Positions 20,447-46,212 of a stretch of 64,000 bases of DNA are shown in pieces; positions within the stretch are counted from its first letter, which is position 1, and the number at the start of each line of letters is the position of its first letter. Location of the stretch: positions 620,001 to 684,000 of the forward strand of contig NZ_PYXZ01000001.1 in NCBI RefSeq assembly GCF_003057875.1. Direction: 5' to 3'. The position numbers were made by a program, and so were the translations under genes. The notes beneath the pieces were generated by a model. The model did no database searches and was not told the DNA's origin. It saw only the letters and a list, made by a program, of their open reading frames with translations. The stretch comes from Nocardioides currus (GTDB lineage Bacteria; Actinomycetota; Actinomycetes; Propionibacteriales; Nocardioidaceae).

Positions 20447-21490
20447 TCAGCTCGATTCGCGTACGGCGAGGGTGGGCGTCAGCAGGACGCCGGGATTGGG
20501 CTCGTGCACGTGGCCGAGGAGCGACTCGAGCGCGCGCACGATGGCGACGGCGACGTCCTCGAGCGGCTGGCGCACCGAGGTGAGGCCGACCGGGAAGACC
20601 TGGGCGACCTGGGAGTCGTCGAAGCCGACCACCGCGATGTCGCGGCCGGGCGCGAGCTGGCGGATCCACAGCGTGTGCAGCACCCCCATCGCGAGGGTGT
20701 CGGAGGCGCAGACGAACGCGGTCGGCGCGGACTCGTCGAGCAGCACGGCCGCGGCCTCGGCGCCGCTCTGGACGGTGTCCTCGACGCGGGACGCGAGGCC
20801 GGTGGTGGGGTGGCCGGCGTCGTGCATCGCGCCGAGCCAGCCCGCGCGACGGTCCTCGCCGATGGGCGAGTCCTTGCGCCAGCCGATCCACGCGATGCGG
20901 GTGTGGCCCTTCTCGATGAGGTGCTCGGTGGCCAGGCGGGTGCCGGCGGCGCCGTCCACGTCGACCCACGGGTGGGTGGCCTGCGGCTGGTCCCAGGGTC
21001 GGCCGAACGCGACGAAGGGCGCACGCTGCTCGGTGAGCCAGGCGGCCTGCGGGTTGCCGAGGTAGGTGTCGGTGACGACGAAGGCGTCGACGGCGGTGGC
21101 CCGCAGCAGGTGGTCGTAGCCGCCGACGGGGTCGTCGTTGTCGCCGGCGAAGAGGAGCACGTGGTAGCCCGCCTCGGCCGAGGTGTCGACGAGGGTGTGC
21201 ACGAAGCGGTCCATCATCGCGTTGGCGGTGCCCTCCTGCGCGGGCAGCACGCGCAGGCCGATCAGCTGCGAGCTGCGGGTGCGCAGGTTGCGCGCCGCGC
21301 GGTTGGGCGAGTAGCCCATCTCCTCGATCGCCTCGCGCACCCGCTCCAGGGTGCCGGGGCGCAGCAGATCGGGGTTGTTGACCGCGTTGGAGACCGTCTG
21401 CCGGGAGACCCCGGCGCGCTCGGCGACGTCGGCGAGCGTCGGCGGTGAGACCGGGATGAATCCCGTCCCCCGTGACTCCGTGCGCGACAT
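20447..21490 (-). CDS. LacI family transcriptional regulator
   Basis: A 347-residue regulator. The N-terminal DNA-binding domain reads TLADVAERAGVSRQTVSNAV followed by the hinge helix SPNRAARNLRTR. The C-terminal periplasmic-binding-like domain, starting LIGLRVLP and containing FVCASDTLAMGVL and VVGFDDSQVAQVF, senses a sugar or sugar-related ligand. No sugar catabolic or transport gene is adjacent, so its regulon lies elsewhere or it controls itself. ATG 21488-21490 is chosen with AAGGAG upstream; the upstream frame runs into repeat DNA. Confidence 0.92.
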   Translation of the reverse strand: MSRTESRGTGFIPVSPPTLADVAERAGVSRQTVSNAVNNPDLLRPGTLERVREAIEEMGYSPNRAARNLRTRSSQLIGLRVLPAQEGTANAMMDRFVHTLVDTSAEAGYHVLLFAGDNDDPVGGYDHLLRATAVDAFVVTDTYLGNPQAAWLTEQRAPFVAFGRPWDQPQATHPWVDVDGAAGTRLATEHLIEKGHTRIAWIGWRKDSPIGEDRRAGWLGAMHDAGHPTTGLASRVEDTVQSGAEAAAVLLDESAPTAFVCASDTLAMGVLHTLWIRQLAPGRDIAVVGFDDSQVAQVFPVGLTSVRQPLEDVAVAIVRALESLLGHVHEPNPGVLLTPTLAVRESS

Positions 21491-21589
21491 GGCTGGCTCC
21501 TTGATCGTTCCAATCCACCGGCAGCATAACCGCCGGGTCCGGGCGGGGGTCGGCACCGTGGCGTACGTCGCGTTGTCGGTGCCGTCGCC

Positions 21590-21595
21590 TACCTT
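21590..21595 (+). promoter_or_regulatory. -10 element for leaderless mini-ORF chain before radA
   Basis: TACCTT lies 7 nt before ATG 21603, which opens a five-codon ORF (MEPRA) whose TGA overlaps the ATG of the first 80-bp element. Confidence 0.55.
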
Positions 21596-21610
21596 TCTGC
21601 GCATGGAGCC

Positions 21611-21786
21611 CCGCGCATGAGCAAGCGAAGCGAGCGAGTCAGACGACACAGCGCACGACGAGCCTCGTGCGCGCACGGAGCGAAGCGAGTAGGCGCGTGA
21701 GCGAGCGAAGCGAGCGAGTCAGACGACACAGCGCACGACGAGCCTCGTGCGCGCACGGAGCGAAGCGAGTACGCGCATGAGCAAGC
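21611..21786 (+). repeat. MIRU-like tandem element A (two 80-bp copies) in front of radA
   Basis: Two copies of an 80-bp unit (21611-21690 and 21691-21770, 76 of 80 bases equal). A 14-bp direct repeat GCGCATGAGCAAGC flanks the insert (21613-21626 and 21773-21786), the second being the start of radA. Each unit encodes a 27-residue Arg-rich ORF (21617-21700, MSKRSERVRRHSARRA and 11 more; 21697-21780, MSERSERVRRHSARRA and 11 more). Stop and next start overlap as GTGA then ATGA, so ribosomes could pass from one ORF to the next into radA. Each unit also holds an 8-bp stem GCGCACGA/TCGTGCGC. Confidence 0.85.
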
Positions 21787-23159
21787 CAGCCAAGGTGAAG
21801 TCCGCCTTCCGCTGCACCGAGTGCGGCTGGGAGACGACCAAGTGGGTCGGCCGGTGCGGCGAGTGCCAGGCCTGGGGCTCGGTCGCCGAGGCCGCTGCCC
21901 CGACCCTGCGTGCCGCCGCGTCGCCGGTGACGACGCCGGCCGTGCCGATCGGCCAGGTCTCGGTGGAGGACTCGACCTTCCGCACCAGCGGTGTCCCCGA
22001 GCTCGACCGGGTGCTGGGCGGCGGCCTGGTCCCGGGCGCGGCGATCCTGCTGGCCGGCGAGCCCGGCGTCGGCAAGAGCACGCTGCTGCTCGAGGTCGCC
22101 GCCCAGACGGCACGCGTGCGCACCCGCACGCTCTACGTCACCGGCGAGGAGTCGGCCTCGCAGGTGCGGCTCCGCGCCGACCGCACCGGCGGCGTGCACG
22201 ACGAGCTCTTCCTCGCGGCCGAGACCGACCTCGGCGCCGTGCTGACGCACATCGAGCAGGTGCGCCCGACGCTGCTGGTCATCGACTCGGTCCAGACGAT
22301 CGGGGCCAGCGGGATCGAGGGCGTGCCCGGGGGCGTCACCCAGGTCAAGGAGGTCGCAGCCGCGCTGGTCCGGGTGGCCAAGACCCGCAACATCACCACG
22401 GTGATCGTCGGCCACGTGACCAAGGACGGCTCCATCGCCGGCCCGCGGGTGCTCGAGCACCTCGTCGACGTGGTGCTGCACTTCGAGGGCGACCGCAACT
22501 CGCGCTTCCGAATGGTGCGGGCGATGAAGAACCGCTTCGGGCCGATCGACGAGGTCGGCTGCTTCGACCTGTCCTCCGAGGGCATCCGCGCGGTCACCGA
22601 CCCGACCGGGCTGTTCGTCGAGCACCACTCGTCCCAGGTGCCCGGCACCTGCGTCGCGGTGACGATGGAGGGTCGGCGCCCGATGCTCGCGGAGGTGCAG
22701 GCGCTCGTGACGCCGTCCCTGCTCGAGCGTCCGCGCCGCACCACGTCGGGCATCGACGGCTCGCGGGTGGCGATGATCCTCGCGGTGCTCCAGCAGCACG
22801 CCGGCATCCGGCTCCACCAGCACGACGTCTTCGCCTCCACCGTCGGGGGCGCCCGCATCACCGAGCCGGCCGCCGACCTGGCCATCGCCGTCGCCATCGC
22901 CAGCTCGACCAGCGGGGCCGCGCCTCCCAAGGGGATCGTCGCGATGGGCGAGATCGGCCTGGCGGGCGAGCTCCGGCGGGTGCGCGACCTGCCCCAGCGG
23001 CTCGCCGAGGCGGCACGGCTCGGCTTCCGGATGGCGATCGTGCCGAGCGAGCCCGGGGCGCCCGAATCGCCCCGGGGCCGCAACGTCGACGGGATGCACG
23101 TCCTCGACGTCAGCACGGTCTTCTCCGCACTGCAGGCCGTGCAGGTCCTGAAGCGGTGA
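21777..23159 (+). CDS. radA: DNA repair protein RadA
   Basis: A 460-residue DnaB-like branch-migration ATPase. Order of parts: C4 zinc finger (CTECGWETTKWVGRCGEC, residues 13-30), Walker A (GEPGVGKST, near 95), the RadA-specific KNRFG motif (near 255), and a C-terminal Lon-protease-like domain lacking the protease serine-lysine dyad. It helps process recombination intermediates. ATG 21777 overlaps the stop of the preceding mini-ORF, and no strong ribosome-binding site is close, so initiation likely depends on termination-reinitiation. DisA follows, as in many Gram-positive genomes. Confidence 0.95.
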   Translation: MSKPAKVKSAFRCTECGWETTKWVGRCGECQAWGSVAEAAAPTLRAAASPVTTPAVPIGQVSVEDSTFRTSGVPELDRVLGGGLVPGAAILLAGEPGVGKSTLLLEVAAQTARVRTRTLYVTGEESASQVRLRADRTGGVHDELFLAAETDLGAVLTHIEQVRPTLLVIDSVQTIGASGIEGVPGGVTQVKEVAAALVRVAKTRNITTVIVGHVTKDGSIAGPRVLEHLVDVVLHFEGDRNSRFRMVRAMKNRFGPIDEVGCFDLSSEGIRAVTDPTGLFVEHHSSQVPGTCVAVTMEGRRPMLAEVQALVTPSLLERPRRTTSGIDGSRVAMILAVLQQHAGIRLHQHDVFASTVGGARITEPAADLAIAVAIASSTSGAAPPKGIVAMGEIGLAGELRRVRDLPQRLAEAARLGFRMAIVPSEPGAPESPRGRNVDGMHVLDVSTVFSALQAVQVLKR

Positions 23160-24339: not shown

Positions 24340-24665
24340 TCGTAGGCGCGTCGCCGTACGAGCGGTGCGTGAGCCACCTTTTCTCGCTCGAGACTGTAGG
24401 TGGCTCACCGCTGCCGGTACGGCGCGGGCGTGTCGCCGTCCGAGCGGTGCGTGAGCCACCTTTTCTCGGTCGAGACTGTAGGTGAGTCACCGCTGCCGGT
24501 ACGGCGCGGGCGTGTCGCCGTGCGAGCGGTGCGTGAGCCACCTTTTCTCGGTCGAAACTGTCGGTGACTCACCGCTGCCGGTACGGCGCCGGGCGTGTCG
24601 CCGCACGAGCGGTGACACAGCGACCTTCCGCGACGCAGGAACGTGGCTCACGCACCGCCCCCGGC
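24340..24665. repeat. Hairpin repeat array 2 (four units of about 82 bp) between disA and 24687
   Basis: The 378-bp spacer holds no gene. Units begin GGTGCGTGAGCCACC at 24364, 24446 and 24528 (exact 82-bp period), with a degenerate fourth at 24611. In the first, GTGAGCCACC pairs with GGTGGCTCAC across a 20-nt loop; the right arm varies in the others. Links carry GCCGGTACGGCGC and GTGTCGCCG. disA ends before it and the 24687 gene ends after it, so it separates converging transcripts. Confidence 0.85.
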
Positions 24666-45864: not shown

Positions 45865-46212
45865 CGGTAGCGCCGGCGCAGCGGTGCGTGACCGACCTTC
45901 TGCGCGCCGGGAATGTGGGTCACCCACCGCCGGCGGGCGCGTCGCCTGAAACCCGCCGACCAGGCGGTGCGTGAGCCACCGTCCGACCGCGCCGAACGTG
46001 GGTCACTCACCGCCGACGGGAGCGTCGCGGCGGCGTACGGCGCACTCCACGCCACCGGTGCGTGAGCCACGTTCCGGCGATCGCGAACGTGGGTGGGCCA
46101 CCGCTCCCGGGCGGGTCGCGGCAGACTCGCCGCCCCGGCGGTGCGTCAGCCACCGTCCGGCCGCGCCGAACGTGGGTCACCCACCGCCGGCGGGCGCGTC
46201 GCGGCGGCGTAC
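45865..46212. repeat. Hairpin repeat array 3 (four units) between converging genes
   Basis: This 447-bp spacer (45789-46235) holds no gene. Units start GGTGCGT at 45883, 45966, 46057 and 46140 (spacing 83, 91, 83). Left arms are GTGACCGACC, GTGAGCCACC, GTGAGCCACG and GTCAGCCACC; right arms GTGGGTCACCC, GTGGGTCACTC, GTGGGTGGGCC and GTGGGTCACCC. It is the same family as at 7.7 and 24.4 kb. The transporter ATPase ends on the left and the GNAT gene on the right. Confidence 0.82.

Follow-up and report, generated by a model that had tools for sequence, protein, structure and literature searches.

Tandem MIRU-like units at the radA start codon of Nocardioides currus and a proposed route to RadA through translated mini-ORFs

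Mycobacterial interspersed repetitive units (MIRUs) were reportedly described in 1997 by Supply and coworkers. Another group of short dispersed repeats, the REP/BIME elements, form hairpins, carry no genes of their own and are associated with RAYT (Y1) transposases. In the excerpts on which we draw, MIRUs are characterized as dispersed repeats of 40–100 bp (PMC2734929) with published unit lengths of 77 and 53 bp (PMC4213456), and MIRU typing is in wide use for tuberculosis isolates (PMC4128351). They appear to be mobile, insert at start codons and contain an inner ORF that is coupled through a 4-nt overlap (excerpt of PMC12548453). One gene that is leaderless in M. marinum is preceded in M. 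bovis by a 77-nt leader that is one MIRU (excerpt of PMC4128351), and repeat length has been linked to the level of fpg1 mRNA in M. tuberculosis (excerpt of PMC2734929).

The locus analyzed here lies within a 64,000-nt stretch of contig NZ_PYXZ01000001.1 from N. currus (the window), where two repeat units precede the gene radA. As far as the cited excerpts go, MIRUs and these repeats are both short dispersed units that are found at start codons, occur in tandem and have an inner ORF with a 4-nt overlap. The M. bovis leader, whose single 77-nt unit precedes a gene without a leader in a sister species, resembles the radA case, and the MIRU lengths of 77 and 53 bp leave a remainder of 2 on division by 3, as do the main lengths found here (80, 77 and 65 bp). 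There are also differences. The host is not a mycobacterium but Nocardioides, together with other genera of the class. A covarying hairpin lies over the start codon here, whereas the MIRU passages that we cite do not mention one, and the likeness drawn here is one of description. Translationally coupled leader ORFs (uORFs) likewise deliver ribosomes to a start codon embedded in structure (excerpt of PMC12548453), but the leader ORF here is a repeated, dispersed unit located at unrelated genes. In contrast to REP/BIME elements, the copies lie at start codons and keep the frame, in a genome where no Y1 transposase was detected. Judging from the MIRU excerpts, start-codon insertion with a coupled ORF is already published, and the element described here is a wider variant. 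We found no report of MIRU-like elements in Nocardioides in the open PMC literature. Within that literature, the following appear to be new: a family of such elements in Nocardioides with kin across the class, a covarying hairpin at the start codon, the assignment of the right-end ATGA to the element and the radA case.

A block of 174 bp separates the predicted radA promoter from radA and is composed of a 14-bp piece followed by two 80-bp units (Table 1). Tandem Repeats Finder delimits the repeat at 21612–21786 with a period of 80, 2.2 copies and a score of 329. The units are identical at 77 of 80 positions and differ at three; a first-pass annotation had correctly recognized both copies and their 27-residue peptides, although its count of 76 identical positions was one too low. 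It had also noted a 14-bp repeat on the flanks of the block, and the 14-mer GCGCATGAGCAAGC is indeed present in identical form at 21613 and 21773. The 14-bp lead ATGGAGCCCCGCGC is perhaps a shrunken repeat unit. The chain of frames proposed in the same annotation was confirmed: It runs from the five-codon ORF MEPRA through two 27-codon mini-ORFs into radA, and each stop shares 4 nt with the next start (ATGA, GTGA and ATGA in turn).

Table 1. Positions of the features at the N. currus radA locus, numbered from the first letter of the window.
Feature	Position	Strand	Description
Predicted radA promoter	21573..21595	+	TTGTCGGTGCCGTCGCCTACCTT; −10-like TACCTT at 21590–21595; sole site of its pattern in the 64-kb window
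Leading five-codon ORF (MEPRA)	21603..21620	+	ATG 7 nt behind TACCTT, the place of the radA ATG in relatives
Repeat unit 1	21613..21692	+	80 bp
Mini-ORF of unit 1	21617..21700	+	27 aa; overlaps next start as GTGA
Hairpin of unit 1	21664..21701	+	CTCGTGCGC...GCGCGTGAG; −14.5 kcal/mol alone
Repeat unit 2	21693..21772	+	80 bp, in tandem with unit 1
Mini-ORF of unit 2	21697..21780	+	27 aa; GTG start; overlaps radA as ATGA
Hairpin of unit 2	21744..21781	+	Contains radA start codon; −19.6 kcal/mol alone; covariation
radA	21777..23159	+	DNA repair protein RadA, 460 aa; TIGR00416, 515 bits (cut-off 403)

The window also contains two tandem arrays of a different repeat family, with units of 82–83 bp and GTGAGCCACC/GGTGACTCACCG-like arms. 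The array at 24345–24614, just behind disA, has 3.3 copies with 93% matches, and the array at 45881–46202 has 3.8 copies with 69% matches.

The genome-wide search suggested by the first-pass annotation revealed 11 other full-length places, so the block at radA is beyond chance. Full-length units are thus present at 12 places in this genome, radA included, along with a 24-bp fragment, and the genes behind the other copies differ from one another. At the DNA level, the unit was matched in 15 of 38 other sampled genomes. A covariance model (R1) gave matches in 79 of 215 congeneric genomes, with the own genome counted, and in 35 of 393 sampled genomes of the class, representing 15 of 137 genera (E ≤ 0.001 in both searches; some matches are weak). 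Both searches used strict filters, with at most 21 and 11 candidates, respectively, scored per genome, and the copy numbers are lower bounds.

Several individual genomes are of interest in this respect. One genome of family f7 (G609, genus g151; loci L346 and L367) has at least 15 strong copies of the Nocardioides type and most of its family has none, a distribution that points to recent spread or transfer. Six genomes of genus g42 have one or more units, some of them in a row, before one and the same gene (MSTLHKFKAYFGMVPLE...; loci L354, L356, L359, L361, L362 and L372), which we take to be SepF-like. At locus L083 of genome G005, a gene is preceded by tandem 21-bp units (ATGAGCGAAGCGAGTACGCGC and a near copy) that look like derivatives of the element's 3′ end.

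The radA gene is flanked upstream by a divergent LacI-type regulator and downstream by disA, and the nearest named RadA loci belong to Nocardioides. Among 213 genomes with a RadA match, we examined the radA leaders of 51 congeneric loci, mostly the nearest. The element was absent from the ∼300 nt upstream of radA in all 51. In the four nearest relatives, radA lacks the insert and starts with ATGAGC behind the same promoter block. A TGTC...TANNNT block ends 6–7 nt before the radA start in 49 of the 51 loci, and in the remaining two (L026 and L174) a TANNNT is likewise seen by eye 7 nt ahead of the ATG. In the relatives, radA looks like a leaderless gene from its sequence, and the units thus stand at a leaderless-looking start codon. 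Together with the dispersed copies and the stop/start rule described below, these empty leaders support part of the earlier interpretation, namely that a dispersed MIRU-like element is placed exactly at the radA start codon and is present in tandem. That annotation did not mention the covarying hairpin over the next start codon, the leaderless look of radA in relatives or the wide distribution of the family within the class.

The promoter block appears to fit the RecA-NDp (PafBC) motif, TTGTCRGTG-N8-TANNNT. In that case, radA would be inducible by DNA damage, and its ribosomes would meet the units on their way. Both the RecA-NDp motif and its activator PafBC are named in excerpts of PMC6789036 and PMC8223512.

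For the other 11 sites of the genome, we looked in six relatives for the two flanks joined together. At 10 of the 11 sites, at least one relative matched across the junction and had far fewer than 80 additional bases; the site of L005 gave no such match. The junction was read in 26 relative loci, which cover six of the 11 sites, and the element was present in none of them. At two sites (L006 and L008), the relatives have GTGA; the copy keeps the G on its left and has ATG on its right. This arrangement suggests that the ATGA at the right end is the element's own, and a simple duplication of a whole ATGAG target is not favored. Two further observations concern relative G185. It has ∼80 extra bases at the site of L004, which may be occupied, and at the site of L006 (locus L339) it has ∼67 bp of unrelated sequence with GTGA on both sides, perhaps another start-codon element.

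The element is ∼80 bp long. It starts at a DTGA start codon that mostly is also the stop of the previous gene and ends in ATGA, where the 27-codon frame stops and the displaced gene starts. To describe this rule, we started from 149 matches in 147 loci, almost all of which had been retrieved for their similarity to the element. Dropping ten matches (3′ end absent or beginning beyond model position 12) and removing seven duplicates left 132 copies, mostly from Nocardioides. Six of the ten dropped matches are variants that match only from position 13 on, for example units that are 9 nt shorter and keep the frame. Tandem pairs occur in five loci of this set, drawn from a collection with one genome per species.

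In 130 of the 132 copies, the stop of the mini-ORF coincides precisely with the terminal DTGA, and the two exceptions (L063 and L278) are units of 79 and 81 bp. At least 60 codons are open from the terminal start codon in 125 copies; the other seven are five first units of tandem pairs, L278, and L286 with 41 codons. The frame from this start codon has the highest GC3 in 118 copies. Both start-codon tests are positive for 118 of the 132 copies, compared with 58 of 150 ATGAG sites elsewhere in these loci; the copies share ancestry and do not represent independent events. By a rough classification of what lies upstream, 79 copies begin on the stop codon of a preceding frame, 18 follow a Shine–Dalgarno-like sequence, 15 follow TANNNT as leaderless genes do, and 20 belong to none of these classes.

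A similar pattern is found beyond Nocardioides, in 92 loci (all of them R1 matches) with 96 left ends assigned by pattern. The mini-ORF frame reaches a TGA that overlaps the start of a long ORF in 83 of the 96 copies, and the other two frames do so in 8 and 12. Of the rest, four reach a DTGA with a short next ORF, seven stop elsewhere and two remain open. The distance to the DTGA is 77 bp in 32 copies, 80 bp in 39 and varied in the others, including five values of 161 bp or more that reflect long frames and not unit ends. Two loci (L348 and L371, positions 1501–1578 of each) break the rule: Their 69-bp units are a multiple of 3, the inner stop is lost and the units are fused in frame to the gene, so that its product gains a repetitive N-terminal extension and there is no coupled ORF.

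Two other lines of evidence for coding proved to be weak. The absence of inner stops is expected in any case, since 93% of column-shuffled units are free of stops, as is frame +2 in 104 of 126 cases. Selection on the peptide is likewise not evident from codon positions, which have mean entropies of 0.60, 0.50 and 0.70 bits (positions 1, 2 and 3, respectively; codons 2–16).

Alignment of 44 copies reveals a stem of 12 pairs in which CTCAT is paired with the ATGAG of the next start codon. Base-pairing is possible in 97.7% of the cells, a percentage that is favored by the fact that the structure was taken from folds of these same units. Five pairs exhibit two-sided changes, with 27 such cells compared to a mean of 4.6 in shuffled alignments, and slid versions of the stem score far lower. 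For two other measures, 14 and 17 of 500 shuffles did as well as the real alignment. In family f16, represented by ten copies from two genomes, two-sided changes occur in nine of 14 pairs. At two stem pairs, the changes are mainly to G·U on the mRNA strand. As shown by covariation in these alignments, the 3′ half of the element forms a hairpin whose 3′ arm contains the next start codon. MIRUs are not known to have dyad symmetry; the units examined here have a 12-pair covarying hairpin.

When the whole radA leader was folded, only the hairpin at radA formed as modeled; the arm of unit 1 paired with the ATGAG at 21617, and the radA ATG was paired with a probability of 0.59–0.74. From this fold, the block of the radA start would be partial, or the two units would compete. 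Variations on the 3′ end are seen elsewhere. Copies of family f20 have a GGAGG-like run within the 3′ arm or just before the start (by eye). In L309–L311 and L313, the units are shortened (∼68–76 bp matched) and have a terminal GAAGGAGG-like run ahead of the start codon, as though a Shine–Dalgarno sequence had taken the place of the hairpin.

The explanation that we favor, with an estimated probability of about 0.68, is that RadA is made mainly by ribosomes that are passed down the mini-ORFs of two MIRU-like copies at a leaderless-looking radA start. We infer that the element is mobile, that it entered the radA start as one unit and that it was duplicated afterwards. The old promoter would still drive transcription, which would begin at 21603 with the ATG of MEPRA. 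If this model is true, then a ribosome would load on this leaderless ATG and read MEPRA followed by the two 27-residue peptides. In passing, it would open each hairpin, and it would end and restart at each 4-nt overlap, while the hairpin would make it harder for ribosomes to load independently on the buried radA start codon. In this way, the element could sit on a start codon without burdening the host much, and each unit added would mean one more restart step.

The repeat might instead be an inert passenger whose mini-ORFs are unused, with RadA translated independently from ATG 21777 or from the in-frame GTG 21747, which would lengthen the protein by 10 aa. The frame from GTG 21747 does run open into radA, the radA start codon is incompletely paired in the leader fold and a stop-free mini-ORF is a weak sign of use. 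We consider this explanation unlikely. Outside the genus, the spacing from DTGA to DTGA keeps the frame far more often than the two control frames do, the start codon lies within a covarying stem and no Shine–Dalgarno-like run is present 5–10 nt before 21777 (by eye).

It is improbable that the units carry a promoter of their own from which radA is transcribed. The stretch before radA, TACGCGCATG, has no TANNNT 6–7 nt before the start as judged by eye, and the ancestral promoter block at 21573 is intact. These observations stand against precedents from MIRUs, which in an excerpt of PMC4213456 are reported to drive regX3 expression when located between senX3 and regX3, and from M. tuberculosis, where an excerpt of PMC2734929 associates a longer repeat region with higher fpg1 mRNA.

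A REP-like DNA element with an incidental open frame, moved by a Y1 (IS200/REP) transposase, would also be a short dispersed repeat that folds into a hairpin and encodes no proteins of its own, and it would be expected to insert behind a fixed TGA, as seen here. However, Y1_Tnp was found 0 times in this genome and in one of 215 congeneric genomes, in a search whose control matched five of 14 known genomes. A Y1 transposase is therefore refuted as the mobilizer in this genome, and it does not account for movement of the element in the genus either. The frame rule, the position at start codons and the G·U pairs on the mRNA strand also argue against such an element, and we judge this alternative to be very improbable. 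Least credible of all is a fixed regulatory RNA of radA (an attenuator or riboswitch-like leader), which the covarying hairpin over the start codon and the damage-type promoter block might have suggested, but a radA-specific leader is refuted by the dispersed copies, by the different genes behind them and by its absence from all 51 leaders of relatives, and a search of 21400–21900 against Rfam gave no match up to E 1.

Relatives of the Nocardioides element occur more widely. A second model (R2) identified related units, mostly of 65 bp, in 58 of 396 genomes of genus g15, whereas R1 had no g15 match among 301 genomes of the family. Of 20 g15 loci read, 16 have a frame whose stop lies in the terminal DTGA of the unit itself, 65 bp farther along. 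An RNAalifold structure for R2 with four pairs near the 5′ end was set aside. Because two g15 genomes are rich in PE domains (at least 45 matches, in a search whose control also matched E. coli), we take g15 as probably Mycobacterium. An evenly balanced proposition is that MIRUs belong, as one branch, to a class-wide superfamily of elements that seize start codons. Its members would be mobile cassettes of ∼65–90 bp that insert at a start codon and bring a hairpin-locked one of their own at the far end, so that expression of each invaded gene would depend on the mini-ORF being translated. Leaderless and Shine–Dalgarno genes alike would become coupled genes, and copy number would serve as a dial.

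The movement of MIRU-like units and their effect on the gene behind them have been little tested so far. The Nocardioides family, in soil bacteria that are harmless, offers empty sites, many copies and a covarying hairpin over the start codon, which make the coupling model directly testable. The findings suggest that the class harbors repeats that are specialized in occupying start codons, including those of leaderless genes. They also suggest that translation downstream of a damage-type promoter can be rerouted while the promoter itself is retained.
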